From the IMG/VR virus record IMGVR_UViG_3300005095_000109, positions 1-63,132 of that record: a stretch of DNA of 63,132 nt. One strand, written 5' to 3'. Position 1 is the stretch's first letter. Every line of letters begins with the position of its first letter. The notes under the pieces are model-generated. The model was not told the DNA's origin and did not search any database. It saw only the letters and a list, made by a program, of their open reading frames with translations. The stretch comes from a virus. Positions 1,164-63,132 of the stretch are shown piece by piece. The position numbers were made by a program, and so were the translations under genes.

Positions 1164-1232
1164 AAAAAAAAGAGAGAGCCACTTAGGCTCTGTGGCGGCC
1201 CGTGCCACCTCTACCACAGAGCCCTATGGCTC
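1164..1232 (-). terminator. Terminator with alternative upstream pairings (attenuator-like)
   Basis: On the minus strand four segments follow in order: GAGCC (1228-1232), GGCTCTGTGG (1214-1223), CCACAGAGCC (1186-1195) and GGCTCT (1175-1180), then a U-run (1164-1171). Segments 3 and 4 form the terminator stem, 2 and 3 a 10-bp alternative stem, and 1 and 2 a small hairpin. This is the layout of a transcription attenuator or riboswitch expression platform. Confidence 0.6.
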
Positions 1233-1520
1233 TCATCCACTCCCGGCCTCCTGCTTACGTCAGTGCCCGGCAAGCCTGTGCGGCACGGCACCGGCGTTCC
1301 CTTTCGGGACCTTACGCCGGCTGCCTGGGACACAGGCAATCCCTCTTGTCCCGGACACTTCGGGGGTCGGCTGATTATAGCGGGGCCCACCCAGCGGATA
1401 ACCCCCTGGCACTTGCCGACCACACAGTGGCTACTTCGCGCAGGCTGTCCCCCAGGCGGACCCTCCACCTGCGCTTTTCACCACTGTGCTCCCCGCTCAC
1501 CAGAGAGCAAAATCACAGAT
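1164..1520 (-). ncRNA. Candidate structured non-coding RNA, about 340 nt
   Basis: A promoter-like motif (1510-1532) and an intrinsic terminator (1164-1191) bracket a GC-rich stretch with no convincing reading frame; the longest frame starts with GTG and is Pro/Gly/Arg-rich. The minus-strand RNA would fold extensively. CACAGTGG pairs with CCACTGTG around an inner GCGCAGG/CCTGCGC stem, GGTCGGC pairs with GCCGACC, and CCGGCGT/ACGCCGG encloses a TCCC-GAAA-GGGA hairpin with a GNRA tetraloop. Large ornate phage RNAs (GOLLD, ROOL) are known near phage tRNA genes, and a tRNA lies 1.3 kb upstream here. I could not match this RNA to those families, to RNase P or to tmRNA. Confidence 0.55.
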
Positions 1521-1532
1521 AAGAACATTTAA
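1510..1532 (-). promoter_or_regulatory. Promoter-like motif for the candidate structured RNA
   Basis: The minus strand reads TTAAATGTTCTTAT, identical over its first 14 bases to the motif before the 3224-3610 gene. It lies at the upstream end of the GC-rich structured stretch. Confidence 0.55.
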
Positions 1533-2876: not shown

Positions 2877-3227
2877 CTACGGCTCCTCTCCGAGTAGTTC
2901 ATAGAATTCGCTGTCGTCGTCATCTTCTTCTGTGTTGTTCACTTCTCTGACGACGAACCCACGTAGCCCTCTGAACCGCTCCTTCAGTTCCTCTAAACTC
3001 AGTTCCCTACCGCGGTCCTCAGGCTTCAGTTCTAACTCTGGCGTCCACACCTCTTTACATCGTGCCGCTAAGTGTAGAGGCAGAACGCCTGCCACCACCT
3101 TCCCGTCAAGAACAGACGGGTCTGTGACGTGAGTAAGTAGTTCTGTCTTCTCGTCCGCCACCCCTAACTCCTTAAGAAGTTGCACCAGAGCAGGGTGGCG
3201 GGTGATAATGATTTCTACTCTCCTCAT
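2877..3227 (-). CDS. Csx16-like protein (CRISPR type III-associated family)
   Basis: This 116-residue protein begins MRRVEIIITRHPALVQLLKE. Three conserved blocks of the Csx16/VVA1548 family are visible: TRHP (9-12), LDGKVVAGVLPLHLAA (about 40-55) and RGRELSLEEL (about 72-81). The tail after residue 95 is acidic and probably disordered. Csx16 proteins sit beside type III CRISPR loci and have been linked to turnover of cyclic oligoadenylate signals. A phage copy could blunt a type III or related nucleotide-signalling defence, as the ring nuclease AcrIII-1 does; that role is inference. The start overlaps the stop of the upstream gene (ATGA), and the tRNA follows by 11 bases. The family call is by eye. 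Confidence 0.6.
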   Translation of the reverse strand: MRRVEIIITRHPALVQLLKELGVADEKTELLTHVTDPSVLDGKVVAGVLPLHLAARCKEVWTPELELKPEDRGRELSLEELKERFRGLRGFVVREVNNTEEDDDDSEFYELLGEEP

Positions 3228-3610
3228 TGCTCTACGATTTTGCTTTTTATTTCTTCAAGAACTGCGTCTTGCTCTTCTGCGTCGGCGGCAGACTCCTCAA
3301 TCTCCTGAGCCGTTATGTCGTAGTACATCTTGCTCGGACTCAGAAGACGCAAGTTCTCCAACCAGTTCTCGCCATAACGTGGCGGCTGGTTGGGCGGGGT
3401 TGTTAGGGCAATCAGCTGCTCCAGAATGTTTTCCAGAACAGCCTGCGAGCCGCGGTGCATAATCTTGCAACGCTTGCTCTGTTGGCCGCGCTGCAGGTAT
3501 ATTACTATTCTGTCTGCGTTCACAACCACCGACTTTATGAGATCGCCACGCGCCAGACGTGGCGTTAGTCGGTGGCCCCTCTTTCCGTTTGTCTTCTCTT
3601 GTGCTGCCAT
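3224..3610 (-). CDS. Hypothetical protein, first gene of the Csx16-like/tRNA operon
   Basis: This 128-residue protein starts at ATG 3608-3610 (MAAQEKTNGKRGHRLTPRLA). The basic N-terminus is followed by a likely beta segment (SVVVNADRIVIYLQRG), a helical middle and an acidic C-terminal helix (EIEESAADAEEQDAVLEE). I recognise no family. Its stop overlaps the start of the Csx16-like gene, so the two are translationally coupled, and it is led by the best copy of the TTAAATGTTC promoter-like motif. The operon context suggests an early anti-defence or host-interaction role, but nothing in the sequence shows one. Confidence 0.75.
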   Translation of the reverse strand: MAAQEKTNGKRGHRLTPRLARGDLIKSVVVNADRIVIYLQRGQQSKRCKIMHRGSQAVLENILEQLIALTTPPNQPPRYGENWLENLRLLSPSKMYYDITAQEIEESAADAEEQDAVLEEIKSKIVEQ

Positions 3611-3618
3611 TGTTTGAT

Positions 3619-3642
3619 GATTTTATGTATAAGAACATTTAA
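3619..3642 (-). promoter_or_regulatory. Promoter-like motif of the 3224-3610 operon
   Basis: The minus strand reads TTAAATGTTCTTATACAT followed by AAAATC, ending 8 bases before the ATG. It differs at only three of 24 positions from the motif at 1083-1106 and is the reference copy for this recurring element. Confidence 0.65.
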
Positions 3643-6219: not shown

Positions 6220-6825
6220 TTATTTTACTGTTAGTATTTCTTTTGCTTTTCTGACCAGTTCTATGTCTGGTCTTGATAGGAATATTTTTTCGTTTAGTTT
6301 GAACCAGTTTCCTATGAAGTGCATTTTTGTTTCCCAGATGAGTATGAATCTTGCTTTTGTTTTCTTTTCTTGAAGTTTTAAGTATTCAATTACTTGTTGT
6401 TCTGTTGCTCCGTGTTCTATTGAGTCTTTTATTACCCAAGCCAGTAGTGCTGTGTCTGATAGGTTGCTATAGATTGGGTCTTTTGTTACTGTTCCGTTTT
6501 GGAACAGTAGTTTGTCTGTTGTTCCTTTTAGTCTCTTAATTGGGTTTTCAGTTAGCGGAAATGGATGTGTGAGTTGTTTGTTTGTCTTTCCTGCGCTTGT
6601 TTTACGTAGGTGGATTACTACTTCTGTTTTTCCAAGTATTCTGTTTACGTTAAGTAGTAATCCCTCTGGTGTCATTATTCCCTTTCTGAATTTCCATTTG
6701 TTTTCTTTTCTGTATGCGAACCCTGCGCCATCTTTGTTGGTTTTCCAGTTCGCTATTATTAGGTTGTTAACTATTTGCACTTCGCTTGATGTAAGGTTTT
6801 TTCTTGTTGCTATTATCAAGCACAT
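6220..6825 (-). CDS. Class II glutamine amidotransferase-like protein, copy 2
   Basis: This 201-residue protein starts MCLIIATRK. Once Met is removed, Cys2 would be the N-terminal nucleophile of an Ntn hydrolase. Further landmarks are KDGAGFAYR, VVIHLRKTSAG (the HTRWATHG block), LLFQNGTV (the HNGII block) and SDTALLAWVI (the SDTE block). The enzyme would release ammonia from glutamine for transfer to a partner ligase. It has no synthetase domain of its own, so the neighbouring amidoligase (5506-6204) is the likely partner. In the second block Gln replaces the usual His before Asn-Gly. Copy 1 lies directly upstream. Confidence 0.7.
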   Translation of the reverse strand: MCLIIATRKNLTSSEVQIVNNLIIANWKTNKDGAGFAYRKENKWKFRKGIMTPEGLLLNVNRILGKTEVVIHLRKTSAGKTNKQLTHPFPLTENPIKRLKGTTDKLLFQNGTVTKDPIYSNLSDTALLAWVIKDSIEHGATEQQVIEYLKLQEKKTKARFILIWETKMHFIGNWFKLNEKIFLSRPDIELVRKAKEILTVK

Positions 6826-27773: not shown

Positions 27774-28421
27774 TTATTCCCTCCTTGGTATTTCAACATT
27801 TACAAAGTTAGAATACTTGTTAAAATCGTGAATTGTGTTAAGTAGCATCCGTGCCGCTATCTGCACTATCTCGTCGTGCGTCTGCTCTGGCAGTATAGGG
27901 ACGCCTGTTGGGGCGCCAGTGGCATTTATTGGCGTCGGTTTCTGGATAATAGTTATCTCAAAATTATTGTAACTACATTGAGGGTATATATAAATACCAC
28001 CGCTTCTCAACACATAAACAGGATAATCACAAGTAGGTTTCCTAAACGGGTCCTTCATCATAGCCATTAACTCATCGTGCTTAACTGGCTTTACATAAGT
28101 TATCTTATAAGAATCGCCACATTTATATTCACAGCGGATAGAAACTATATACAACATATTCGTGAGAACAGCATGCGTATTAGGAAGCACTAAAGCATCG
28201 GTAGTTGCATTAAACTGGCTTACAGGAACTATATATTCCCTAACGAGAGGTCTCAAGTCCTGAGTTATCCTTTCATCTCCTTCAAAGTTTCTAAATCTGT
28301 TTTCTATTAACTCATACATAGCACGTGTTAATATAAGGTCAAGTTGTTGGGAAGAGAAATACGGAGTGTCATACTTGTCAAGAAAGGTCTTCAATAAATC
28401 ATGCATCTGCTGGAACGTCAT
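27774..28421 (-). CDS. Probable connector/ring protein
   Basis: This 215-residue protein starts MTFQQMHDLLKTFLDKYDTP. A helical N-terminus (SQQLDLILTRAMYELIENRF) leads into beta segments (DALVLPNTHAVLTNMLYIVS) and a C-terminal helix, the general layout of head-tail connector or tail tubular A proteins. It overlaps the upstream gene by 4 bases. Other podoviral connector roles are equally possible. Confidence 0.58.
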   Translation of the reverse strand: MTFQQMHDLLKTFLDKYDTPYFSSQQLDLILTRAMYELIENRFRNFEGDERITQDLRPLVREYIVPVSQFNATTDALVLPNTHAVLTNMLYIVSIRCEYKCGDSYKITYVKPVKHDELMAMMKDPFRKPTCDYPVYVLRSGGIYIYPQCSYNNFEITIIQKPTPINATGAPTGVPILPEQTHDEIVQIAARMLLNTIHDFNKYSNFVNVEIPRRE

Positions 28422-29272
28422 GGCTTATTAGTTTGCCTCCTTCTTACAGGTCGCTTTAGCTTCTGCTCCCCCTTGCTATCAGTCTCTTCGGCATCGTCTT
28501 CTTTAATATCAGCAGGCATTTTCAACTCTTCCTCTATCTTTTTTACAATCTCATTATAAATCTCATCGTTGTTCTTAAGAAACTGAACTGCTAAGTCTGG
28601 CGAAGTAGCCATATTTATTTCTCCATACCTATACATACCATTAGCAGTGTGAACTATTATACCAAGCGTTTCTGCCAGATAGAATGTATTGTAATACTTC
28701 CTATCTGGTCTGTTATAAAGGTCAATTACTTCATCTGGATTGGCAGTGGCTCTCTGTATTAACTCAGCACGCCAGATGTCAACATCATCACGTAAATCAA
28801 CTTGAATACCTAACATTCTACACATCACAAACAACTCATAGTCCTTTGCTTTGTTTAACAACTGTATTGCCTCCGTAAGCCTCAAGGCAGTGCGAACCTT
28901 GTCCTTAGCCTCCTTCTCCCTATGTATGATACGAATGTATGGATTAGGTGTGTCATAATAAACTGGATGATGAAGCCAACATTCATACTCGTTCCTATCA
29001 AGCGGATTAGACAAGTCAAGTATTCTTGTTGAAGACATCCTAACTACCCTTTCCTCGCCATTCTCATCCACCAGCCTACGCCATACGCCATTCCTGTCCC
29101 TATAAGACCTTAAAGTTATCATACCAGTCTTTTTAGGATTTCTAAAAGTAATTACAACAGTGCCTTTATTCGGGATAGCAATTGACACTGCCTTTCTTTC
29201 CTTTGCAACTGCCTTACTAAGTTCCCTTTCCCTCTCTATCTGCTGTTGTATTGTCTCAGGCATAACATTCAT
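28418..29272 (-). CDS. Virion-module protein downstream of the capsid gene
   Basis: The open frame begins at a TTG (29281), but ATG 29270-29272 (MNVMPETIQQQIERERELSK) is the sensible start, giving 284 residues. After a charged helical start come strand-like segments (KAVSIAIPNKGTVVITFRNP) and a long helical middle; the last 40 residues are acidic then basic (KLKRPVRRRQTNKP). No enzyme motif. It follows the capsid terminator and has its own TAACTTTG element that would give an almost leaderless mRNA. It could be a head-completion or decoration protein. Confidence 0.65.
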   Translation of the reverse strand: MNVMPETIQQQIERERELSKAVAKERKAVSIAIPNKGTVVITFRNPKKTGMITLRSYRDRNGVWRRLVDENGEERVVRMSSTRILDLSNPLDRNEYECWLHHPVYYDTPNPYIRIIHREKEAKDKVRTALRLTEAIQLLNKAKDYELFVMCRMLGIQVDLRDDVDIWRAELIQRATANPDEVIDLYNRPDRKYYNTFYLAETLGIIVHTANGMYRYGEINMATSPDLAVQFLKNNDEIYNEIVKKIEEELKMPADIKEDDAEETDSKGEQKLKRPVRRRQTNKP

Positions 29273-29278
29273 TTGTTC

Positions 29279-29286
29279 CAAAGTTA
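29279..29286 (-). promoter_or_regulatory. Bacteroidota-type -7 element before the 28418-29272 gene
   Basis: The minus strand reads TAACTTTG, ending only 6 bases before the ATG at 29272. If used, transcription would start within a few bases of the start codon. A terminator lies just upstream, so this element re-initiates the operon. Confidence 0.5.
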
Positions 29287-29292
29287 AGAAAA

Positions 29293-29332
29293 AATAGAAA
29301 ATAAAAACCCCTCCTGCACATATCAGGAGGGG
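29293..29332 (-). terminator. Rho-independent terminator after the major capsid gene
   Basis: On the minus strand CCCCTCCTG/CAGGAGGGG (29308-29332) forms a perfect 9-bp stem with a 7-base loop, followed by a U-rich tail (A-runs 29290-29307). It lies 40 bases after the capsid stop and would limit read-through from the strongly expressed capsid gene. Confidence 0.88.
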
Positions 29333-29371
29333 CCATTAATTACAAGTGGCTTATTAGGGCTGGGCTTGGGG

Positions 29372-30757
29372 CTAAACTCTTATCAACATTCCGCAAGCAA
29401 GCGGGTTGCGGACTACAATGCCAGATTCAGACAGTAACTCAATGGTAAAGCCGTCAAAGGAAGTTGCGGCATTCACGCTGTTTGGGTTGAATGGGTCCAT
29501 CATCCCCGGTATATACTTAACAATAAACCCTCTATTCATCCTATCTGCACCCTTAACAGCTATCTCCACATTTGCTTGCCCGCCTGCCTGAACAGACCAA
29601 TCAACAAAAACCATTCTATAAGATTCCTTAGGGTATCCAGTTGCTGGGTCTATATCATGATGTATCGTTGGGTCATCAAAGATTGGGTTCCTTACAACTG
29701 TTATAGTATGACCCAACGCATGGAACGTCTTGAAGTTTAGCCCAAGCTCTATCTCCATACCAGCATCGTAATCATAGAATACTGAACCTGTTTGTGTTAA
29801 ATAGTTCTTCATTGCTTCATAGAATGCACGCATGCCAGCAGTTCCTGTATATACTACCCACTTAATATTTTCTCTGTTCCCGTTGTTATAAGCGAGCTGC
29901 GTCATAAAGTCAAGCAATACTGTATCTGTCAACTGCCCACTGTAAGTATCAATGTTAGAGGGTTCTATTTGTGCTAACAATCCATCGCCAGAAAGCAAGA
30001 CCCGTCCAAGGTTATCTGTTATGTTGATGTTGCCGTTAGCATCAATAGTTCTGCGTCCATACCAATACATCAACTCTCGCCTATACATGAACAAGTCCAT
30101 CAACTGTTGTTGTGCTTCATAGAACCACAACTTCTGACCGTTGTTCTCAAGCCATATAATATCTGTCAATGCATCGCCAGTGATGGTTTTGCCCATCCGC
30201 ATAATGGTCAGGTAGTTGACATACTCATCAGGATACCTCTCAATGCTGTATCCCTTTTCGCTACCTTCTGGGAATACAGACCCAATTACGCCTGCCAATT
30301 CGCCATTGGCAAGGTTTGCAGGGTTCAAAGTCTGTGTTGGGTCATCTGTCTGAAGCCTAAACTCGTATTCATATCCCCCTGCAACAGGTTTGGGGCCGCT
30401 AATAGCAATAGCCTGTGTCCCGTCTTTGAACCTAACTACATCGTATGGATGTATATAATTTTCATAAAAAACAACCTTAAACACAGATTGATTTTGTCCT
30501 ATATTAGTAGCAGGGCTGAAGATACCTGTGCATGTAGATGGCTCAGTAAGGCGACCTATCACCTTCCACCTATATTCTCTATTACCTACTTGGACGTCTT
30601 TTGCTATTCGTCCTAGCCCTTCTGTTAGGTAAGTAAGACCATACTGGGGGTAAAGCCTAACAAGCACTTTTGAAAGTGCAGGTTCTTTAATCATATTAGC
30701 AACAAGGCTGTTGCTTTCTGTAACCTCTGCATTTACTTTACCCTTGAATATCCGCAT
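29372..30757 (-). CDS. Major capsid protein (probable)
   Basis: This 461-residue protein starts MRIFKGKVNAEVTESNSLVA. The early helical region with VLVRLYPQYGLTYLTEGLG and the GNREYRWKVIGR strand resemble HK97-fold capsid proteins of crAss-like phages, and length fits. It lies directly after portal and scaffold genes, has its own promoter-like element and is followed by a strong terminator, as expected for the most expressed virion gene. No protease gene was recognised nearby. Identification is by context plus pattern. Confidence 0.78.
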   Translation of the reverse strand: MRIFKGKVNAEVTESNSLVANMIKEPALSKVLVRLYPQYGLTYLTEGLGRIAKDVQVGNREYRWKVIGRLTEPSTCTGIFSPATNIGQNQSVFKVVFYENYIHPYDVVRFKDGTQAIAISGPKPVAGGYEYEFRLQTDDPTQTLNPANLANGELAGVIGSVFPEGSEKGYSIERYPDEYVNYLTIMRMGKTITGDALTDIIWLENNGQKLWFYEAQQQLMDLFMYRRELMYWYGRRTIDANGNINITDNLGRVLLSGDGLLAQIEPSNIDTYSGQLTDTVLLDFMTQLAYNNGNRENIKWVVYTGTAGMRAFYEAMKNYLTQTGSVFYDYDAGMEIELGLNFKTFHALGHTITVVRNPIFDDPTIHHDIDPATGYPKESYRMVFVDWSVQAGGQANVEIAVKGADRMNRGFIVKYIPGMMDPFNPNSVNAATSFDGFTIELLSESGIVVRNPLACGMLIRV

Positions 30758-30773
30758 AACTTATGTTTTGTTG

Positions 30774-30781
30774 CAAAGTTA
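30774..30781 (-). promoter_or_regulatory. Bacteroidota-type promoter of the capsid gene
   Basis: The minus strand reads TAACTTTG (TAnnTTTG), 16 bases before the capsid ATG, with a TTG about 21 bases further upstream inside the end of the scaffold gene. Spacing and both boxes fit the consensus of Bacteroidota sigma factor promoters; this is the best example in the window. Confidence 0.6.
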
Positions 30782-30788
30782 AGAACCG

Positions 30789-31814
30789 TTACTTTATACC
30801 TTCAAGGAACTTGGACAGGTCAACACCGCTACTTCCAGTCGGCGGCAACCCAGTTGCCCTGCTTATATTATTAGCATGAGTAAGGCTTTTCATAAATTCT
30901 GCCTTTGCAGACTGCGTGGCACTTGATTTTATCATTTCAAAAATCTTGTCTCGCCATCTCCATAGCATTGCCGCCTGTGCAAGATTTTCAGGAGCTGAGA
31001 ATATCTCTTCTGCAAACTGACCACTTGTTACATAATTATATATATCTTTTCTTATTTGCTCTGCCTGTTCCTTAGAGGTTGCTATTGGAATGCCACCTAT
31101 ATCATTAATGTTATTGAGTGCCATGATAAACTCTTGTCTTGCCCTCTCTAATTCTTGTTCTCTCTGTAACCTTGCCTGTTCAATAGCCTGCTGGGCGAGC
31201 CGTTGGTATTCCTTTAACTTAGCATTTATCTGTGCCTTTACTTCTGTTGCCTTTAGGCTTAACATATCAGACATAGCAAGTTTATCTACATAGTCATCAA
31301 TCTCATCTTTTGACATTCCTAACTCGCTAAGCCATGCTTTTATCATTTCATCCTCAGGAAGTATAAGATACTTTTGGAGTTTTTCTATATCGTCTTGATA
31401 AGGTATCTTTTCCTGCTTAACAGTTGCCGGCTGTGGAACTGCTTTTGTTGGTGCCTGCTCTAACTTGCCCTGTAATTTTTGTTTCAGTTCCTCAATACTT
31501 GATACACTTTCCGGGTCTATGCCAAAACTTTTTGCCAGTTCTTTTATTACTTCTAAATCCTTGGTCTGTGCGGTTTGATTAGCCTGTGGCGTTTGTTGAG
31601 GTGTATCCATAGCCTGCGTGTCGGTTCTGGACCCGGCTTCCCCACCTGCCAAATCAAACCACGAAAGCGACGTGGTTTCTTTATTATGTGCCTGCGTATC
31701 CGTTTTTTCATCTTTCTGTGGTTGTTGTGTTGACTGTTCTGTTTGTGTTGCCTTTGTCTCTTGATTATCAGTGCCAGTATGTGTCTCCTGACCCTGCTTC
31801 AAATCTTCTGCCAT
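30789..31814 (-). CDS. Probable scaffold protein
   Basis: This 341-residue protein starts MAEDLKQGQETHTGTDNQET. The first 110 residues are Gln/Thr/Ala-rich and disordered. The rest is highly charged helix, including RLAQQAIEQARLQREQELER, with a coiled-coil look. It has no Cys and ends in DLSKFLEGIK. This composition and a place between portal and capsid genes are typical of phage scaffolding proteins that shape the procapsid and then leave. Confidence 0.72.
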   Translation of the reverse strand: MAEDLKQGQETHTGTDNQETKATQTEQSTQQPQKDEKTDTQAHNKETTSLSWFDLAGGEAGSRTDTQAMDTPQQTPQANQTAQTKDLEVIKELAKSFGIDPESVSSIEELKQKLQGKLEQAPTKAVPQPATVKQEKIPYQDDIEKLQKYLILPEDEMIKAWLSELGMSKDEIDDYVDKLAMSDMLSLKATEVKAQINAKLKEYQRLAQQAIEQARLQREQELERARQEFIMALNNINDIGGIPIATSKEQAEQIRKDIYNYVTSGQFAEEIFSAPENLAQAAMLWRWRDKIFEMIKSSATQSAKAEFMKSLTHANNISRATGLPPTGSSGVDLSKFLEGIK

Positions 31815-31849: not shown

Positions 31850-33994
31850 TTAAATAGGAGGAGGAGGTGGTGATTGAGGTGTCTTTTTATCAGTGTCAGC
31901 ATCTATTGATCTAAGTTCTTTCTCTTTATTTGCTTTTATCATAGTTGCCTCCTTCCTGCCTTTGGCTTCTATCTCTGCCGCTCTTACTCTTGTTTCGCCA
32001 GCAATCATACTCTTTTGTATCTCTGCGTTAATCTTAGCCTGTTCAAGCTGTGCCTTCATCATTTCTATCTGTTGCTGTTGCTGTGCCAGTTGCTGTTGTA
32101 GTTGTTGCATTGCCGCAACACCCTCTTCAAATATCTTCTCTGCCTCCTCATAATCCCTTGCCTTAGCAAGTTTAATTAGTTGTAATATATCTATGTGACC
32201 GCTTGATGCCGCTTGTGCCGCCACCTGCATTATAAACTGCTTCTTCTCTATATCTATATCGCCTATCTTGACAAATACAGAGTAGTCGTTTAACGCTACT
32301 GTCTCATCTATCTTGAAGTAAGCAAGTTGAGCATCAGACATAAAGTATTTAGCACGTCCGCCCCCAGCCAGCCCCCAGTAAATCTTGACAAAGTGAACAA
32401 GTCTATTTAGTGAATCACGCATTAGTTTGTTAAGCATATAAAAAACAGGCATTGTCATAAGGGAAGACTGCGTTATTGCAGACTGAACGGAACTGGCTGG
32501 TGTCCTGTCAGACACAAACCCCTCACGAACCCTGCTAATTCCAGTTAGGGCTTCCGCTGTCTGCTCAAGAACAATTTTCAAGTTGATGAGTTGTGTAAGG
32601 CTTTGGCTAAGCGTCAAGTCAACTTCAGACATTGCGGGAGCTCTGGCTTCCCTAATGCCCTCTTCCATTGAGTTTATGAATATAACTCCAGTATTCTTTA
32701 AGTGATAAATAATTTCTGACAATGGAACATTGGAAGGTTTCTGTGCAAGGTCATAGACAATAGCCTTTCCGCCAGCCCGTGCCATAGTCAGTTCTATATG
32801 ATACATGACTATATTGTATAGAAGTTGTATGTTTTTAAGCAGGTCAACTATACCTTGTGGGGTGCCTACGCCACCATTCTTAATAACACCAGAATAAGTA
32901 AATCGTGTTGTGCTTAGGTTTTCTTGCGTCCGTTGTTGACCGGGAACAGGTCTGGCCATTATGACTTTATCTACGCCTACAACAATAGCCTCCCACAGTT
33001 CTACTATCGGGACCTTCTGCTCATCGCCACCTCCTTCTTCACTGTATATTGCGAATGACTCATCCTCTTCTGACTGTGCCAGTTTCTTGAGACTGACCCA
33101 TCTTATAGCCTTCCACTCTATCCTGTAAACCTTAACCCACGTCCCAGAGCCATCATAGTAATACCATCTATTATCCATCCCCTTAGCCTTCTGCGGGTCT
33201 GCCAATTCCTTAAGCCATCCCTTTATGCCTTTGTCCTCTATAAATGCACTATATCTATTAACTATAACATGCAGTGGCAACCATGCCTCTTCTATTACAT
33301 AAGGACTGTCTTCTAAATCACTGCCAACTGACGGGTCGTAATATATATTTAGTGGGTGTATCCTCTCAATAGTTGGTGTATCCCCGTCAACAACTATTTT
33401 AACAAACGCTTTTCCGCATATCAGGACATCAAGAAGGCACTGTTTGAACACATGCTTAAAATCATAGAGTTCATTAAGATACTGAAGGCTCTTTTCTATA
33501 TTTACCTCATTGGCATCTCGCCAATCGCCACGACCTATTTCTTTTATAACCTCCATACCGACCTGTGTAATTATATCAGGCATTATATTAATGCCTATTT
33601 CTTCTGTTATTTCATGGAGTATCTGTCTTGCGAAATAATCAACTGTCTGTGTTATATACTTTGAGAACTTTGTGTTTAGTGCTTCGTCATTAACAGACCG
33701 CACTGTGAACTTCAAAGGCTTAGTTACGAACTCGCCTATTAGCAACTCAATTTTAGGCTTTATTAGTGGGTAGTTAACGAGCCTTGCTGGAGCCGCAACG
33801 CCATACATTTCAGTAATATACTTAAAGTCATCTTTATTAAACTTGCCATCATAAATTGCATAGTTTTCCTCAACACGCTGTCTCTCAGCAGACCAATATG
33901 TAGATAAGGGGACGCTATTAGCAAGTTTCTTAGCAACTTCCTCTGCCCACTCCTTCTCATTTGAGTCTGGAACAACAAACTCTATATATGCCAT
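31850..33994 (-). CDS. Portal protein
   Basis: This 714-residue protein starts MAYIEFVVPDSNEKEWAEEV. The region RQRVEENYAIYDGKFNKDDF, then ARLVNYPLIKPKIELLIGEF and TKPLKFTVR matches portal proteins of crAss-like phages, as does the HPLNIYYDPSVGSDLEDSPY block. The last 100 residues are a Gln-rich coiled coil and charged tail (AAMQQLQQQLAQQQQQIEMM), the C-terminal crown or barrel. It overlaps the TerL stop by 13 bases, the usual TerL-portal order. It would form the dodecameric DNA gate of the head. Confidence 0.85.
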   Translation of the reverse strand: MAYIEFVVPDSNEKEWAEEVAKKLANSVPLSTYWSAERQRVEENYAIYDGKFNKDDFKYITEMYGVAAPARLVNYPLIKPKIELLIGEFVTKPLKFTVRSVNDEALNTKFSKYITQTVDYFARQILHEITEEIGINIMPDIITQVGMEVIKEIGRGDWRDANEVNIEKSLQYLNELYDFKHVFKQCLLDVLICGKAFVKIVVDGDTPTIERIHPLNIYYDPSVGSDLEDSPYVIEEAWLPLHVIVNRYSAFIEDKGIKGWLKELADPQKAKGMDNRWYYYDGSGTWVKVYRIEWKAIRWVSLKKLAQSEEDESFAIYSEEGGGDEQKVPIVELWEAIVVGVDKVIMARPVPGQQRTQENLSTTRFTYSGVIKNGGVGTPQGIVDLLKNIQLLYNIVMYHIELTMARAGGKAIVYDLAQKPSNVPLSEIIYHLKNTGVIFINSMEEGIREARAPAMSEVDLTLSQSLTQLINLKIVLEQTAEALTGISRVREGFVSDRTPASSVQSAITQSSLMTMPVFYMLNKLMRDSLNRLVHFVKIYWGLAGGGRAKYFMSDAQLAYFKIDETVALNDYSVFVKIGDIDIEKKQFIMQVAAQAASSGHIDILQLIKLAKARDYEEAEKIFEEGVAAMQQLQQQLAQQQQQIEMMKAQLEQAKINAEIQKSMIAGETRVRAAEIEAKGRKEATMIKANKEKELRSIDADTDKKTPQSPPPPPI

Positions 33995-35820
33995 TTAAGT
34001 ATTGATTTTGTCAGTTCAGAGTATTTACCCTCTGTCCCCTTGTTGACAAAGTTATCAACTATAATCTTTCCATCTACATATTTAAGGCGTGGCAGTATAA
34101 TCTGATTATCGTCCGTTTTTTCTTCATCAACGACTCCTATCGGCAAGTCAAGGTCTGCTATCAGTGCAATACCAAAAGCCATTGCGAGGTCATCACGACC
34201 TTTACCATATCGCCGTAGGTCGTCTATCAGTTCTGGGAACATTATCATATCAACATTCTGATTGATATACTTGTTAAGCAGTTCAGTAACTAATGCTTTC
34301 TGCGTAACCTTCATATTAATTCCGTATTTAAGCGGGGACCTTGTTTCAAACAGGCGTGGTCTGGGCAAGAGCAAGTTCAACTTCCTGTTGTGTCTGAACC
34401 AAGAGAACAACTCCGGGTCAGAATTTTCAACAAGCATTTTGCAACCATAATACTCTGCTATCATAGCAATAGTCCTGTAAAACTCTTCCTTGTCATCTGG
34501 GCGGTCTGCATATATACAAACAGGCAATTCGCATACCTCATTAGCAGAATAAAAACGCCTGTATATGACACATGCACCACGTGAAATCTTTTCATGGACC
34601 TCTGCAAACATATATGGGTCAACGCCTCCTATGTCTACATTTTTACCCTTTAAGTGTTGTGGCAGTGGATGTAAGTAAATCTTTACTGGGCCGCCTTTAA
34701 CTGGCTTAAACAAAACGTCCCCATTTTTGTCTCTTATCATATAGCCTTCTTGGACGCCAACATCATTTGTCATCAGATAAGAATACCTATCGTTCAATTT
34801 GCCTATGTCAAAGACTGAATTTGCTGCATCTAAAAACGCTTCCTCAACAGTTGTGGGATATTCCTGCAAATACATATAGTAAGCAGAAGAGTTACCAGAT
34901 CTTCTAAGTTTCTCTGCCTGTTCTTTTATGTATCTCTTTGCTCCTTCCTCGTCGTCTTTCCCTGTTGCAGGGTCAAAGAAGCCGTGTAGTGCCCTATGCG
35001 CACCTATAAAGAACCTAATCATATTATACTTCTCTGCATTATACCACAACTCTTTGAAATCATCATATCCCTTGCCGAACTTGTTAACTGTCCCGCCAAT
35101 TACTATTGTGCCGAACTGCTCAGCCCCTTCTTTGACGCAAGCGAGCGACGCCATAAAGGCACGCAACAAATTATCTATCTCACCAGCCTCTTCAAACAAC
35201 AAAAGCCTTAACCGCTCACCACGGAACGTGTCTGGGTCTTTTATAGTCCTTAGATGCAAAACTGTTTGCGTGCCTTGTTTCTGCCAACCTGCTTCCGTCT
35301 TCCTCTTGTAACCGCTTACTATCCTGTCCTTCTTAGATTCAAGTATTGGCAATTGCAGCTTGCCCGGCAAATTGCTCAGCATTACTTCAAATCGCTTCCT
35401 GAATGTATTGACATATACTTCCTTCTGTGCACCAACGCCGACCTCATTGAAAGGAAAGAATAACCACTCCCAAAGTATATAAGCAGTCATCATGTATGAG
35501 AAGCCCTTATCACGGGCTTTGACTATAATTACGTTCTTGCCCTCCTGCCGAGCCCTTTCAAGCGTCCAGAAGAATTCCTTGTCCAGTTCACGATATAGCG
35601 GGGGTAGTAACTTCTTACGTCTCTCACGACCATCAGAAGCAAGAATGCGAACAAAGTTTAGATAGAAATAATGAGCACCAGTTATCTTGCCAAGCCTTGT
35701 CTCATAACCATTTAGACACCTGTCAACCTGCTCAGCCCACCAGTCATCATCATCATATATCTCGCCATATACAACAGGAGAGAAATCCTTAACAACTTCA
35801 AATGCATAGTAATCATGCAT
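33982..35820 (-). CDS. terL: Terminase large subunit
   Basis: This 612-residue protein has the two-domain terminase layout. The ATPase shows a deviant Walker A KARDKGFS (101-108), with preceding strand NVIIV, and Walker B LLLFEEAGE (about 206-214) with the catalytic Glu. The nuclease domain shows VDIGGVDPYM (D401) and GRDDLAMAFGIAL (D543/D544). It pumps and cuts DNA during packaging. It overlaps the portal gene and an upstream structural gene by a few bases. No small terminase gene was recognised; one of the small genes upstream may fill that role. Confidence 0.9.
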   Translation of the reverse strand: MHDYYAFEVVKDFSPVVYGEIYDDDDWWAEQVDRCLNGYETRLGKITGAHYFYLNFVRILASDGRERRKKLLPPLYRELDKEFFWTLERARQEGKNVIIVKARDKGFSYMMTAYILWEWLFFPFNEVGVGAQKEVYVNTFRKRFEVMLSNLPGKLQLPILESKKDRIVSGYKRKTEAGWQKQGTQTVLHLRTIKDPDTFRGERLRLLLFEEAGEIDNLLRAFMASLACVKEGAEQFGTIVIGGTVNKFGKGYDDFKELWYNAEKYNMIRFFIGAHRALHGFFDPATGKDDEEGAKRYIKEQAEKLRRSGNSSAYYMYLQEYPTTVEEAFLDAANSVFDIGKLNDRYSYLMTNDVGVQEGYMIRDKNGDVLFKPVKGGPVKIYLHPLPQHLKGKNVDIGGVDPYMFAEVHEKISRGACVIYRRFYSANEVCELPVCIYADRPDDKEEFYRTIAMIAEYYGCKMLVENSDPELFSWFRHNRKLNLLLPRPRLFETRSPLKYGINMKVTQKALVTELLNKYINQNVDMIMFPELIDDLRRYGKGRDDLAMAFGIALIADLDLPIGVVDEEKTDDNQIILPRLKYVDGKIIVDNFVNKGTEGKYSELTKSILKWHI

Positions 35821-39753: not shown

Positions 39754-42700
39754 TTAGCGAATTCTATATGAAACAGACCCAACTACTTTTGTTCTTTTCC
39801 TTTTATTTGCCTGTTCATATTTCCTCATTAGAGATAGTGCTTGGTTAGGCACTATTGGCGTTACCGTTAGCGAGAACGCTTTAAGGTAGTCTCGTGTCAA
39901 CTGCATAGGTGTTGACTCCCCTTTGGCAAAGTCAATTGTTCTATATGTAGAGTTTGCTATAGCCTGCATAAAGTTGAAGCCTATTGGTAGCCTTATGCCA
40001 TATGTTGGCAGGTCAAGGATTTTATTAACTGTTGCTGGCAGATAGTAAGATGCTGGGTATGCTACTAATCCAAGTGAGTTGTTTATAAATGAAGCGGCTG
40101 CTGTCTTTGCTATACGTTCCTGTTCCTTTTCTTTTGTCTTTCTTTTCTCGCCAGTAAGCAGTTCTTTGAGGAAATCAATAGCAGCAAGGAAAAGCGATGT
40201 TAGGATTATAGCAAGCCCGTAGTATGACAAACGCTTTGTATTCCTATACTTAAGGTAATCTCTTAAACCGAGCACGAAGTTTGAGAAGATAGGCCAAGAT
40301 GGCGTTGTAAACATTGTAAATAGCCTAATCCACGAGTAATAAATTTCTGGTCTGAAGGTTGTCGTGTACATTGGTTGTGTGCTCCTGACTGCGTTATAAG
40401 TGTTTTCAGATACGTATTTAGCCCATTCTCTCGTGCCTTTCTTTAACCCCATTTTTTGTGCCTTCTCTGCATATCTATTCCACGTTTCTATAATCATTTC
40501 TCTATCTGCATATGCAATCATTGACATTGTTGATTCCATACTTGTTGCATCAATAATTTTCTGTGCTACTTTTTTGCCGAACATTTTTGTTAACAATTTT
40601 CCTGCTTCAATAGAGACAGATGTTTTAGTCCCGAACAAGTCTTCAACAGTGTAGTATGACAATAGTGGTGTTGATATAAGCCTTGCGGCAATAAGTCCAG
40701 TAGTATCATACTCAATTATTTCCCTTATTCTTGGGTCGTTCAACTCTCTCATTATAGACTCTGGCTTTGACTTGATTGCTCTTGCCTGTTCAACTGGTGC
40801 CCCTTTGATTATCCTTCCGACAAGAGTTATTGCCCTACCTATTGATTTAAGGTCCCCAGTAGCCGCTCCGAGGGTTACAAGACCAGCCGCCTGCTTAATA
40901 GCAGAGAATATGTTCATAAAGAATATAAATGCCACTTCTATTTTCATTTGTCTATCAAGGAGGCGTTGCCACTTTGCCTCATTTAATTGAGGGGCGTAAT
41001 ACCTATTTACGAAACTCTTTATCTTCTGGACAAGGAACCTATACATTTCGCTTCCGTATCTATCGCCGTAGGAAGTTACTGTTTTTGCAATCTTCTTATA
41101 GTTCATCACTGGGAATGTATATCCATAAACTGTTGAGGCAAGCCTTTGTGAAAGTGTCAGGACTGTATAGGCGTCAGTGATTGTTACAGCCTCGTTTTTA
41201 CGTTTATGCATATCAATGTATGGGTTATCAAATATGTTGGCAACTCCCTTTATCTGGACTGAAAGAGGGGTGCCAATGCCAGATACTCTTGGGACAAACA
41301 GACCATCTGCTTTATTCTCATAGCCGAAAGCCTTTTTAACTATTGAGTTAGTTTCGTTTTTCAGTATTCTAAATGCCTGTTCAAAAGCCTGTGCCTCTTC
41401 TTTGAAATGTGCATTGACAATACTATTAATTGCTTTTTCAAATGACTTGAAAGCACTTTCATCTCCGAACCATATGCTTCTTTTCTTAATGTCATCTCTA
41501 TCAGAACCATAGATAATACCATGTTCTTTAATATCTTCTCTTGCCTTGTTATCTTTTAGATACAGGTATACTGTTATAATCTCTGCCGGAGTTAACTCAT
41601 GGACGTCTTCAAACTCTTCAATTTCTTCCTGCCCTTTATTCCAAACTTTTTTAACATTTGTAAATTTCACTTTCATCTTAGGCACGTCCTTTCTGCTAAC
41701 TGTTACATACTCGCTTGACCTAATATGCTGTGAACCATCTGCCAACTTTTTGTTCTTCAGAGTTGGTGTTATAAGTTTCTGCACCCGCATAGTCAGTTTA
41801 CTTGCCATCATGTCGCCATGTTCAAAAGCGAGATAAAGACCTTTATACAGTGCGTTATCTGTCCCGCCAGCAATCAAGTTAAAGAATGCGTGTGGTTGCA
41901 GGAATGAAGACAACTTAAACGTCTTAAACATTTTAACAACCAATGGGTCTGAGGCAGCAGTTGATATTTGCGTTACCATCTCGTTATCAAGATAGTCATT
42001 ATATGTAGATGTGATAGCCCTTCCATCAGCTGCTTGGAATGTGTTTTTGGAAGACAAAACTCTGTTTATCAAAGCCAGAGCTCTTACTGCAACTATAACA
42101 TCGCTTAACGCCAAGTCCCTAAGGACAATTTCATTGCCATTCTGCAATTTTAGACTTGCGACTGGGCTCTTGCCGTCATATTCTATTTCAAGTGTTCCAT
42201 TAAGTATTTGCTGTATTGTTTCATCAGAAAGCCTGCCATCTGGGTTATCACCAAAGAGCAGATTAAAAACACTCATTGGATTAGCATCGTCATATGCGGC
42301 TCCTTGTAAGTTAGTTAGACCAGATAATGAGTTATCAAGGAAGTTGCCAAAGCCTTTTAGCCCAAGTATAGCCTTACTAATCTGATGTTCTTTATCATCG
42401 CCTATTATATCGTCAAGTTGTCTAAATATCTGTAACATTGCTTGTTTACGTGCTGGGATGTCAAGGGACATAATACCTGAATCCACTTCATTTGAAATGA
42501 AAAATCCGAACGATAGATAATCAAGTATTTCGTCTGCTGCTGTTATTATGTCATCTGCGCTTTTAATTTCAGTGTAATGCTGTTCCACCCCCTCTGTATC
42601 AGCCACTATGCCGGGGTTAATCTCATCAAAATGCTGCTCAAACAGGTTGTCTGGTTGGTGCTGTGCTTGCTGCTTTATTTCTTGCTGTGCTGGCTGCGTT

Positions 42701-45700
42701 TGTAGTTGTGGTTGCTTAATGCCCTGCTTTTCAAGTATTTGCCTTGCTTCACCAGTCGGCGTTAACCTGCGCAGGTCTGCTTCATAAAATAGTTTAGCAA
42801 GTCTCTCATAACCTATAGAACTTTTTATCAGCCACTTAAGCCTTGTCCAGAACTTGTATATAACCTTTAGCACACCCTTCAACTCATTAATCTTGCGTTC
42901 ATCTTGTAGCCTTCTGACGTAAGAGACAGCAAGCATCTCAGCAAGCCGTTCCTCTCCGTATTTGTCTATTAGCCTTTTAACGAGTGGGTCTTCCCTGAAC
43001 ATATCTATATAGACGTGTGCGAATTCGTGAGGGGCGGTTGTTATTCTCCCATCAACCAACGACCACGCAACTAAATAACTAAGTTCTCTTTTTTGCATAT
43101 ATCCAAGTCTCTTGCCTAACTTTTCATCATATATTCTAATTTCAACAAATGGGTATTTAGCCATTAAGTCTTTAACTATTGCCTTGTATAGTTCTTCATT
43201 TTCTATAATTCTAACCATACTTTCACGTTCAATCATATAATCGGCATCTTCTATTTGGCTTTTGATTTCTGCTTCATTTATTGATACTACTTCAATGCTC
43301 TCTTCACTTAGTTTAACCAGTCGTGGCACAACACCTTTCTTGGCAAGATTAATGATTGATTCTGTTATCTTATCTATATCGCCTTGTGCACCAAGGACAT
43401 CTTTCAAAATCTTCTTAATCTGTTCCATATCCTTTTTAGCAACTGCTTCTTTTAATGTGTTGTTTATAGTTTCAATATCCTGTGTTTCGCTTGCTCTCTT
43501 GAGCAACTTTATAGTTGTTTTCCGCCCGCTTGATAACGCATTTGCTAATGCTTCTGCTATTGATGCCCTCTTGCTTGTCGGGATATAGAAGCCGAATACA
43601 TCCTTATCATTTACTATTCCTATTTTATCAAACTTGGTATTAAGAATTAAGTTATCATCAATAGTATTTGACGCCTGCAATTTCTGAGACAAAGAGATTG
43701 CAGACTTAATGGATTCAAGCAGGTTAGGGTTGCTAACTGCTATTCTACTTAATACATTAATAGTCCTTGCAGAAAGGTCATTTATAACCTTATCTATATC
43801 AAGCCCATTTAAGTTAACTTCAGTTACTGATATATTAATTCCAGGTGGTATGTATATCTTAGCTTGTGCTTTACCTCCAATTTCATTTATCCTGACAGCT
43901 ACATCAACTGTTTGTAGGCTATTTATTAAATCTTTTATCTTATCGGCAACTTCTCTGTTAACATTTAGCGATTGTAGATGTGTTATTAGCATACTGCTAA
44001 AGTCAACTCCGCTGACTATAACTTCTTGTTTTGGTATGCCGTCAAAGTATGGTGTTATTTTAACGAGACTATTATCTGCTGGCTCAGCAAGTCCAGGCAT
44101 ATATGCAAGTTCATGGTATCGTGTTGTTATTAGTTTTTGTTTTGATTGTCTATCTTCAACTACCTTATCATATTTGATCTTCAGTATTACATAGTTATTA
44201 GGTGTCTGAGGCGGTATTGCAGATAAAGCGTCTGCCAGGTCAGGAGGCAGATTAGTTAATACCTTGCTTAGCTCCTGTTGCGTTGGCTTTTCAACAGTCA
44301 ATTTCCTATACTCATATGCATTGTGCTTTCTAACCCTTATGTTAAACTCATTTAATCCTGCAAGCAGGATTATGTTCTCCCTTGTGTTATATGGATGTAA
44401 TGGGTTTATGAGCATATACTTACTGCCTGCAATATCAAACAATATAAACCTTTCTTTCTCTAAATCATACTTAACCATTCCGTGCACTACGCCCTCAGGG
44501 CGTGATTTCCTTAATATGTTTGTTGCAAGAGATTCTCTTAAAGCCTGTAATTTGTCTTCCTTGCTTATACCTGCTATTGATTCTGTTATTTGCATTAGTT
44601 CCTGCTCTGGTAATAATGACATAACTGGCGATGCGGCAAACACGCCGTTCTTAGCTGTCATAACATATGCTATTGGCTTCAGGTATATAGATGATAGGTC
44701 GGGAGATGCGTTTATAAGTTTCTTTATTGCGAGCCATTCGTGAGGTGATACATTAGTAAATGTCAAGTCAACACCATTCTTTTTGAATGGCGACTTTATT
44801 CTTTTCTTTTCAAGCCATCCTATTATGTTCTTCACCTGTGAAGGCCCGATAAAATGCTCACCATTAATTGAGTATGCTGATAATAGCCGTGCTATGTGGA
44901 ATGGCATCCTGCCGTTTAGTTTAGCGTTGTATAGGTCTATATTCATTTTCATCCACAGGCGTTCGCTTGGTGCCTCGCCATACATAGCCTTATCAACAAG
45001 GTATGCGCTGTATAATTCAAGTGCAGGACGTATCTCTGTTTCGTATCCTTTGAATATGCTGTATTCTCTGAATGGGAGGAACACAGTAGATAGCGGTTCG
45101 TAGATTTTTGAGTATATGTATCCAGCAAAGTCTGCGTATTCAGATTGTATTGCGAATTCTGTTTTTTCTACGCCTGGATAAGCCTTATGTTCATCAAGTG
45201 CTATCCTTACACGAATCATCTCCTCAATAGATGATGGTATTGACCTGTATATGCCGAGGATTGGGGCAACATACGATATTGCTTCCTGCCCAGCTGCCAG
45301 ATAGTCCATTTTTTCAAGGCGATATTCAAGGGACATATCTCCATAGAATGCTTCTACTGCCTGCGCGTATAAGTGTGCTGGCATTGAGAAGTAATCATAT
45401 CCATTTTTAACTGCATATTTTTCAACAAAGTCATACATATTTATTATTTCAGATATTACTTCAGATATTTCGTTTCCGTGCAGGATAGCCCCTGCTATGT
45501 AGTTAAGTGATGCTGAGTTAATGAGCATTCTGGATATTGCGAAGTTGTTATTGTTGTCGTCCAGTGCGGCCTGCACGAATATATCAAGGCTTTTGACTAC
45601 GCCTTCTTTCTGCAACAGTTCCTGTATGTTTATCGTCTTCCTGCGTCGCACTATTATCTCTTCTTCTTCTGTTTCCTGTGTTGTGTATCCTGTATATGAC

Positions 45701-48700
45701 ATTTTATCGACAACGCTTATTAACTTTCTCAGGACGACAAGCGTGCTTATAGCATCGTTAGCAGAGCGAGTTCGTGCTGAAATCTTTAGCCTTGCAGACC
45801 TATTTTCAAGAGACAGTTCTTTATCTAAATCAGCTTTTCCGCTTTTGCTTAATGCACTTAATAACCTATCGTATATTTCTTTGTAATAGCCTTCATCGTC
45901 AATTATCTTCTTAACTGTTTCCGGTGTGAACCTCACAACTTCTTGCAGGTCGTTTGGAAGTGTTATTTTGTATTTCTTAGCAAGCATAGCCAGTTCAACT
46001 ACATCAGCAAGATTTGACATCCCAGATGGGTCAAGTTTATAGTCTCTAATTGCTTCATCAACAGAGTTATATACTTGCTCTGCTGTTTTGACCAATTTGG
46101 ATAGTGCTTTTGCTATTTTCAGTGATTGCATTGACCACCCCCATTCAGGCGTGTTTACATTTTTTATCTCTTTTTGTATCTTTAGCCCTTTTAGTTTTAG
46201 ATATTGTGTTATTAACTCATTAATATCTTTTTCTGTTTTAACATTATCAATGTTATTCATTATATAGTCTATCATATCATTGACAAGAGAAACATAGTCT
46301 CCTTCATGAGTTTTACTTGCTATTATTTTAAAAAATGTTTGACCTGTTATTTCTTTCATTCCCCTTAAGTCCTCATATATGAAAGGTGCTATTGCTTTTA
46401 TGCCTTTTGACACTATGTAGTCCATTATAATTTTCCTCATACCTCCATCTTCAGGGAACACAAATAGGGCATCTCCATCGTAGTCGGCATCAGCCCTGAC
46501 CCTGTCCCTTACTCCACGGATAATGATATTTGCGTGCAGGCGTCTCCTTGCTTTATTAGAGTAGTATTCTCCAGTATGCCCTATTACCTTTGAGAATGCT
46601 ATATTTGGTGCCTGAGTAGGGACACGGATAGTCATTATTTTTTCGCCCCGCTTAGCTACCATAGGAGACACGATAGCCTTACCATCAATAAGCAATTCAC
46701 CAGTTGAAGGAGACCCCATATCTGGGACCTCATATAAGTGTGCTCCGGGCAGTTCTGCACGTGCCGCCCGCTTATGGAACATCTTAGCAAGCGTTGGGAT
46801 TATGATGGAAGCATATTCTATGTTATGCATAACTGCTTCTGTCATTGCCTTCGCCTCGTCTATGTCTTCTTCCGCTTTGCTTTTTATTGCTTTATCTATT
46901 TTGTCCTGAAGCAGTTTGAACATTTTAGACAGTGATTCAGAAACATTTGTTTTCCAAGCGGCATCGGCACCTTGTATAGCACCAACTATCGCTTCCTTCA
47001 TAGTTCGCAGAAAACCTATATCAGAGTTGTCCCAGTTGTTGAGCGTCGCCTCAATCAGTTCCTTATATGCATTCCACAGTTCTTTCACCCTTTCTGGGTC
47101 CTGAGCCACAGATTTAATTGTTGTATAAGCCATTAGCGGGAACAACGATGAGGACTGTTCGTCAACTGGTTTGTTGGTATTAATGACTATGCCGAATGTT
47201 GATGAGTCAACATATGGCTCTTCCTCCTTTATGTATTCTGCTATATCTGTTGCTATATCCTTAACTGCTTTCTTTACTTTGAGTTTTGCTCTTTTTGCTA
47301 CTTGTTGACCATTCACCTCTTCTGTTTCTATTGCTTCAATATCAAATATGTCAAAGACTTGTATCGGACCGCCCCCCTTTGTTAAATGCCCTTTCATAGC
47401 AGAACTTGCTATAAACACAACTGCTGTGTTATCATCTATATGCCCCCTGCGTTTAAGTTCATCAAGTATTGCTTGCAGTCGTGATTCAACATATGACCTC
47501 CCACCTTCTATTTTAATGCCGCCCATTTTGCCATACAGAGGAGCCAGCGCATACCTGCCGTCTTTCTTTTTGTATGGTGCTAACCCATAGAGCATTGGCT
47601 TGATAAATGGGCTTGTATCATCAATACTTGCAGTATCGTTAATCAAGTCATACATTGCGTCGTTGTAGAAGCAGAAGCCGTCAAGCAGTTCTGTTTCTGC
47701 TACCTCATTACCTATGCGTAGTTTTATCTTCGGATCTTTGAATGGTATGATAAGCAATTTCTTCCCGGGAGCCAATCGTCTAATGGTTGGCGTCTTTGCA
47801 CCCTTAGTTATTTTCTGTTTCTTGCCGTGGGAGAGCATATCAGTAAACACAAGGTCTCCTGATGTAAGGACATCATATACGAAAGATGCCATAACTATAT
47901 CAGTTGCTATTTTCTTAAATGATTGCTTACCTATCTTGAACACATTAGCCTTTTTATCATATTGTATGTCATATTTGTTTTTCAGAAAACTTATCTGGCT
48001 CTGTGTAACGTCGTCAGGTGCCTTCACTTCTATGTATTCAATATCTGCTTCCTTCAGGAGTGATTCATATTCTTTTACAAGTTCATCCCTATACTTAGCA
48101 AGTCTTCCCTTAATGTCTTTATTATCAAGACCAACAGACTCTGCGATAAAATCCAAGTCGCTGTATTTATCAAAAACTTTAGCATCTTGATAAGTAGGCA
48201 TTTTAACAGCGTAAACTTCCCTGCTATCGCCGTGTGGCGGGCTAATGAAATAGAAGTATTTGCCCGCACTTTCAATTATTCCGTTTATATGCATCTTCAA
48301 CTGTGCTATTAGCTTATTCTTGTATGGCGCAGTAGCGAACTGTGTTGCCTTTTCGCCTATATATACGCTTGTGAACAAGCTAACCATATCACCGCCTTCT
48401 TGTTCTATCAATCTGTATATAAGTGTGTTCTTATACAACTCAGTTAGTTTGTTGATGTAGTCTTGTGCAGAGTTGAATTTTGCTATGCTTTGTATGAAGT
48501 ATTTCGCATTTGAGAATATTCGGATAACATTATTGACAAAACTTAGTGCATTGCCCTTTTCAGACCCCACATTGAAAGTCGTCTTGTTGTAGTAACCTTC
48601 TTTGATTAATTCCCCTATTATCTTCTTGTAGTAGTATGATACGCTTCTTATTTCCCTTACTTGTTTTTTCTTATCGTCTTTGTAAATGTTAAAGACAAGC

Positions 48701-62289: not shown

Positions 62290-62690
62290 GTCCCACCTGT
62301 CCCACCTAACGTCCCAAACCTTGGGACGGACCCCGCACCTGTAACTGGTTGAAAACCAGACAGTTATAAATCAAAATTTGGTCTTGTCCCATCAGAAAAA
62401 ATTATCCTGGGACGCACTTAACTGGCTGTGAGTGAGTATGTTATCACAAGTTAATGTGTGAATGTCCCAGCTGAATGCTATTTATTTATATATATATACT
62501 ACCCCCCTCTCTATTTTTTACCTTTTCACTTTTTATAAAAAAGATGGGACAGATATAGTAAAAGTATAGGAAACTCACTGAAACACACTTAGTTATAGCG
62601 TCCCACCCATACATGGGACACACAACATACACAAAAACAAAAAATAACTGAAACACACACAGTTATGCCACGTCCCATACCAAATGGGAC
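62290..62690. repeat. Array of 12 GTCCCA/TGGGAC motifs
   Basis: GTCCCA occurs at 62290, 62299, 62311, 62386, 62464, 62600 and 62672, and TGGGAC at 62322, 62408, 62545, 62614 and 62685. Three pairs form dyads GTCCCA-N5-8-TGGGAC (62311-62327, 62600-62619, 62672-62690). By chance about 0.2 such hexamers would be expected in 400 bases at even base composition. Confidence 0.9.
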
Positions 62691-62879: not shown

Positions 62880-63132
62880 CTACCCATACATCCCAAACAA
62901 ACCATTAAACTCACCTACATACCACTCAGGTAACCACAACAACTCACCACTATACACAACACTACCCAAATCTCTCTCCACAAAACTTACACCTATATCA
63001 ACACCATCTAAACTACCAACAACCACCAACTTAGACTTCAACGCTCCTATATAACCATCTACCCACGCAGAACAAACACTATACAACTTGGCTATCACAC
63101 CATACCACATAGCTCTCCTACAACCATCACAT
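62880..63132 (-). CDS. Hypothetical protein spanning the contig junction (3' part)
   Basis: This is the C-terminal end of the 240-residue protein that starts at base 561. The frame from 63132 to the TAG at 62880 is continuous with that at 1-561. The last residues are FNGLFGMYG. No domain is recognised. Its 3' end faces the gene-free repeat region at 62200-62879. Confidence 0.8.
   Translation of the reverse strand, partial: CDGCRRAMWYGVIAKLYSVCSAWVDGYIGALKSKLVVVGSLDGVDIGVSFVERDLGSVVYSGELLWLPEWYVGEFNGLFGMYG
63042..63132. repeat. Terminal redundancy, right copy
   Basis: This is the exact copy of bases 1-91 and lies inside the coding frame of the gene that ends at 62880. It closes the genome into a circle and should be trimmed once before any gene counting. 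Confidence 0.9.

Follow-up and report, generated by a model that had tools for sequence, protein, structure and literature searches.

Near the left end of the record four co-directional units follow one another on the minus strand. The first contains a 128-aa orphan gene (3224-3610), a Csx16 homologue and tRNA-Met, the second the orphan gene 1642-2028, the third a GC-rich segment that is the subject of this analysis, and the fourth the orphan gene 784-1074 (Table 1). The window comprises the IMG/VR virus record in full (63,132 bases). It carries an exact 91-bp terminal direct repeat (1-91 and 63042-63132), thus the genome is probably complete, with a circular or terminally redundant map, and the left end of the record is not necessarily a physical end. 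A 240-aa minus-strand ORF (561 to 62880) crosses the junction of the record ends. The region between the Csx16/tRNA unit and the second unit (2100-2700) is non-coding and consists of low-complexity CTCTACTGCTCTACTACT-type and CGAACGCAACGAACGCAACGC-type sequence.

Table 1. Features of the locus and other genes mentioned in the text
Feature	Position	Strand	Remarks
Terminator of 96-aa gene	747-778	minus	ACCCCCTGCCC-GCAA-GGGTGGGGGGTCTTTTTTT
96-aa orphan gene	784-1074	minus	Motif at 1106; coding sequence is eight hairpins in series
Terminator of RNA unit	1165-1234	minus	Nested GAGAGCC/GGCUCUC and GGCUCUGUGG/CCACAGAGCC stem, then CTCTTTTTTTT
Candidate structured non-coding RNA	1165-1503	minus	Fold z -5.1; flat codon-position GC; no Rfam match
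Long composite hairpin	1262-1358	minus	AGUGUCCGG/CCGGGCACU, GCCUGUG/CACAGGC, GCCGGCGU/ACGCCGGU; cap UCCC-GAAA-GGGA
5' hairpin domains	1366-1489	minus	GCACAGUGGU/GCCACUGUGU stem around GCGCAGG/CCUGCGC, then GGUCGGC/GCCGACC hairpin
GTG frame, 41 codons	1375-1500	minus	Start-codon spacing as in neighbouring units; GC 0.63/0.66/0.73 by codon position
Promoter-like motif TTAAATGTTCTTA of RNA unit	1520-1532	minus	Exact copy, start 1532
Structured 3' region and terminator of 128-aa gene 1642-2028	1530-1641	minus	AGAGGCAGG...CCTGCCTCTTTTTTTT
128-aa orphan gene	1642-2028	minus	Motif at 2067; GC 0.70/0.40/0.71 by codon position
tRNA-Met(CAT)	2789-2865	minus	Last gene of Csx16 unit; terminator 2742-2722 follows
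Csx16 (Cas_VVA1548) homologue	2877-3227	minus	Pfam PF09652 1.5e-14; PADLOC Csx16 7.6e-15
128-aa orphan gene	3224-3610	minus	First in Csx16/tRNA unit; motif at 3642; over-structured coding sequence
Major capsid protein (MCP)	29372-30757		Closest GenBank phages crAss-like
TerL	33982-35820		Closest GenBank phages crAss-like
4727-aa protein	39754-53937	minus	ADYDGD motif

The 13-base motif TTAAATGTTCTTA is present in three exact copies, starting at 1532, 2067 and 3642, where a third-order Markov model predicts 0.011 copies for the whole genome, and in a copy with two mismatches at 1106; all are on the minus strand. Every copy lies 32-39 nt upstream of a start codon or of the RNA start deduced for the third unit, the distance being 32 nt for 3224-3610 and 784-1074, and 39 nt for 1642-2028. 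Because the motif is so far above chance and always stands at this distance, the GC-rich segment can be regarded as one of the four co-directional units. We infer that TTAAATGTTCTTA is the promoter of one temporal class. This class is plausibly early in view of the gene content of the units, which comprises a Csx16-type ring nuclease, a tRNA and small orphan proteins.

The original prediction had described this segment as some 340 GC-rich bases without a credible reading frame, bracketed by a promoter-like motif and an intrinsic terminator, with long nested stems and containing a GNRA-capped hairpin, situated between hairpin-rich genes and about 1.3 kb from a tRNA. All these features were found, the tRNA-Met at a distance of 1.26 kb. 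Judged from its sequence, the third unit has a promoter and a terminator of its own, both on the minus strand, which is the strand assigned to the putative RNA. The terminator (1234-1165) has a nested stem of 8+10 bp (1234-1174, minus strand) followed by T8, and the other three units likewise end in terminators (2742-2722, 1641-1530 and 778-747). The 5' end of the RNA was placed at about 1505-1500 from the spacing of the motif.

The coding potential of the unit appears low. GC by codon position is roughly flat (0.50-0.73) along the whole unit, unlike in the neighbouring genes, and the longest ORFs have 85 (minus strand) and 106 codons for amino acids (plus strand). A protein is formally possible: the near-leaderless 41-codon GTG frame (1500-1375) could be a small gene with a structured 3' untranslated region, and its GTG stands 32 nt from the start of the motif, exactly as do the ATG codons of 784-1074 and 3224-3610. 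Its GC distribution over the codon positions is, however, not coding-like, a frame of this length is unremarkable at such GC content, and the neighbouring genes start with ATG. We consider the GTG frame probably non-coding and a small protein gene an improbable explanation of the unit.

The minus strand of a 346-nt segment covering the unit folds at -180.5 kcal/mol (z -5.1) and the plus strand at -151.6 kcal/mol (z -4.3), with no shuffled sequence as stable in either case; the shuffle tests of this analysis relied on a simple local-fold measure, with 30-40 shuffled versions for each case. The minus-strand fold is thus about 28 kcal/mol more stable than its complement, and at 70 C it still has -86.5 kcal/mol and keeps the main domains. 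For the 5' hairpin domains the minimum free energy (MFE) structures calculated for 37 C and 70 C concur with each other and with the centroid, and the long composite hairpin is part of the MFE structure of the 341-nt unit at both temperatures. The GNRA hairpin TCCC-GAAA-GGGA was located on the minus strand, at 1298-1309. Local hairpins of 6 bp or longer cover 19% of the element, whereas over 3.7-58 kb of the genome their share averages 0.8% and nowhere exceeds 7.6%. An AGUGCC/GGCACU kissing match was also noticed within the RNA; such matches are expected by chance in GC-rich RNA.

On the strength of the terminator, of the shared motif, of the fold z-score and of the flat codon positions, which support a non-coding unit, we put about even chances on the minus strand from ~1503 to 1165 encoding a discrete non-coding RNA of ~340 nt with a stable fold, in a crAss-like phage whose host is probably thermophilic.

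It must be noted that structure alone is not a mark of an RNA gene in this region, because the surplus of local folding in the element is smaller than that in the flanking coding genes. The 150-nt windows in the element have fold z-scores of -0.2 to -4.4. The lowest values of the genome, -6.8 to -9.2, fall in 676-1125 and 1576-2025, thus the hairpin-rich flanking genes proved to be extreme; the genome-wide mean of such windows is -0.4 (sd 1.4). When the coding sequences were compared with synonymous shuffles in which the protein and codon usage were held constant, local folding had z-scores of -7.0 (784-1074), -7.9 (1642-2028) and -4.8 (3224-3610). In the same test the Csx16 gene scored -1.1, most other genes were around 0, and the next lowest value was -3.5 (6220-6825). 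Extreme coding-sequence structure was limited to the units carrying the TTAAATGTTCTTA motif. In the 96-aa gene eight hairpins of 8-14 bp follow one another, then comes the terminator hairpin, and 56% of its unit lies within local hairpins of 6 bp or longer. By the searches tried, no homologues of the neighbouring orphan proteins were found. In our view the element itself is less strange than the hairpin-packed mRNAs beside it.

These observations bring up the main rival of a non-coding RNA gene, namely that hairpin packing is a general property of the transcripts of the island, giving stability or protection against heat or RNA-targeting nucleases, and that the third unit is spacer-like or decayed and has no function of its own. 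The stronger folding of the flanking coding sequences speaks for it, both in the windows (-7 to -9) and against synonymous shuffles. So do the deviations from perfect pairing in the stems of the two flanking genes: when folded with G-U pairs forbidden, these were, in small numbers, G-U in 6 cases and A-C in none on the transcribed strand, as against 36 and 59 in the background. Together with the GNRA and UUCG loops which the neighbouring genes carry on the minus strand, the G-U deviations point to selection acting on the RNA of these genes. On the other hand, the third unit retains its own motif and terminator and has no remnant of a codon pattern, and its hairpins are long and composite whereas those of the neighbours are simple tandem hairpins. 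We regard this explanation as unlikely, though not by a wide measure.

The palindromes might also act as DNA, as a cruciform or as a packaging or replication site. This would be consistent with both strands folding significantly better than the shuffled sequences, but the transcribed strand folds better in every unit, it is the minus strand that carries the GAAA, GCAA and UUCG tetraloops, and the excess of G-U over A-C deviations in the flanking units is what selection on RNA would leave. A role as DNA is, in our opinion, very unlikely.

It is interesting to compare the element with known RNA families. At the gathering score a search of the whole window with Rfam returned only the tRNA, and none of the 4227 families matched the RNA element; at E<=10 the region 1050-1600 had only chance matches to miRNA hairpins and none to GOLLD or ROOL, and a limit of E<=1 likewise gave nothing beyond the tRNA and such chance hairpins. 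Covariance-model matches at or above the gathering score were found neither for GOLLD and ROOL nor for OLE. In view of the high GC content of the RNA in an AT-rich genome, RNase P, SRP and tmRNA had been considered, and were dropped as there was no Rfam signal. The element had no blastn match among GenBank phages or plasmids, and DNA matches to 41 IMG/VR records related via TerL and MCP did not go beyond chance 15-25 mers. Covariance models built on the composite hairpin 1262-1358 (R1) and on the 5' hairpin domains 1366-1489 (R2) had no match outside the window over 503 kb, and pattern scans of DNA for the promoter motif gave no matches elsewhere. None of the ten related records that were read has a GC-rich island of this kind. 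A 17-mer of the RNA had two chance matches in GC-rich phages, both within one coding gene. From the failure to find homologues in the searched collections one cannot conclude that this phage alone has the RNA.

The proposal of a new structured phage RNA was thus borne out in so far as a folded, apparently non-coding transcription unit matching no Rfam family, GOLLD and ROOL included, is supported by the sequence. The suggested kinship with the ornate, tRNA-linked RNAs of the GOLLD/ROOL type was not supported. Such an RNA, assembling into RNA-only cages, would likewise be a large structured RNA in a phage genome with a tRNA, here tRNA-Met nearby, and a Met-tRNA is located upstream of the GOLLD env-38 RNA (PMC12286853). 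The element, however, matched neither family even at E<=10, its ~340 nt are less than half of the >800 nt of many GOLLDs, and the tRNA belongs to a separately terminated unit; moreover, the setting is here more likely to be early or anti-defence than a tRNA island. We think it most unlikely that the element belongs among these RNAs. To our knowledge, few phage RNAs have been described beyond the tRNA-linked ornate families.

The best reading of the unit appears to be an orphan non-coding RNA of an early or anti-defence island. The profile match of the Csx16 homologue was 54.4 bits with PF09652 (cut-off 25), and 25.3 bits with NCBIfam TIGR02620, which is under the cut-off of that model (46.35). 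The Csx16 family has been shown to degrade cA4, by which type III CRISPR systems signal, and in a published survey was present in only 2 of 28,114 phage genomes (PMC12409355). The homologue, which was absent from the 41 related viral records, is likely a type III anti-CRISPR. With such a neighbour, the RNA would accumulate early in infection and bind a host protein in trans, serving as a structured decoy for a defence factor that senses or processes RNA, and the Csx16-like enzyme alongside would destroy cA4. This mechanism, which is drawn from the neighbourhood of the unit, is the one that we prefer; it is put forward tentatively, and we would not call it probable. Somewhat less likely still, the phage makes a whole class of mRNAs and non-coding RNA built of back-to-back hairpins, which would be shielded from RNA-targeting immunity such as type III CRISPR, the target of its Csx16 too, or from the nucleases of a hot cell, and the 340-nt RNA would be the non-coding member of this class, maybe a bait.

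Phage RNAs have been connected with immunity before. The ToxI antitoxin RNA acts in the form of short tandem repeats, and no such repeats were found in the RNA element. Phage PhiTE evades the ToxIN system by using RNA mimics (PMC3475682), and the likeness consists in a phage RNA, proposed in our case, directed against defence. In staphylococcal phages the cabRNA (CBASS-activating bacteriophage RNA) is a transcript of the terminase genes that sets off defence; it resembles our element, by its description, as a structured phage RNA with relevance to immunity (PMC10686824), but the unit described here is 32 kb from terL and has its own motif and terminator. Should it be expressed, the element would represent a structured orphan RNA of a crAss-like phage, adjoining a Csx16 homologue. 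The synonymous choices that turn messages into chains of hairpins, in one promoter class only, would offer a test of early-RNA shielding, be it from RNA-directed immunity or from heat.

The assignment of the 63 kb genome to the crAss-like phages is based on TerL and MCP, whose best tblastn matches among GenBank phages were crAss-like (24-28% identity), and on a similar order of the structural genes. The structural block is shared with the IMG/VR record G001 (capsid 51%, TerL 40%). The proteins have an IVYWREL content of 0.408, as compared to 0.345-0.368 in ten relatives, and this composition is suggestive of a thermophilic host. Hardly any Shine-Dalgarno sites are present (3 of 60 starts), and TAnnTTTG motifs, the Bacteroidota promoter type, occur upstream of the capsid gene and others; these two features suggest a Bacteroidota-type host. 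An archaeal host had been considered, as TTAAATGTTCTTA resembles a TATA box ahead of near-leaderless genes, and was dropped in view of the crAss-like structural genes, the scarcity of Shine-Dalgarno sites and the TAnnTTTG motifs before the capsid gene.

In the Thermus phage P23-45 a virion-borne RNA polymerase reads AT-rich pre-early promoters (PMC10770324). The present phage is an attractive parallel in its arrangement: an AT-rich block lies upstream of the set of units, the phage is thermophilic by its protein composition, and it encodes a giant virion protein. The 4727-aa protein is a possible virion RNA polymerase on account of its ADYDGD motif only. Comparison of the protein with solved structures and PHROGs did not find a polymerase, and for this reason the reading of TTAAATGTTCTTA-type motifs by a virion polymerase is something that we infer. 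Residues 912-1085 of the protein resemble a putative molybdenum carrier protein (PDB 3imk).

GTTCTTAACTTTG-type motifs are found in the upstream regions of the capsid and adjacent structural genes (28418-31814), and may represent a second promoter class, of the Bacteroidota type, with GTTCTTA in common with the early-type motif. The non-coding region 62290-62690 has a cluster of 12 iteron-like GTCCCA/TGGGAC copies, and is possibly a replication origin.
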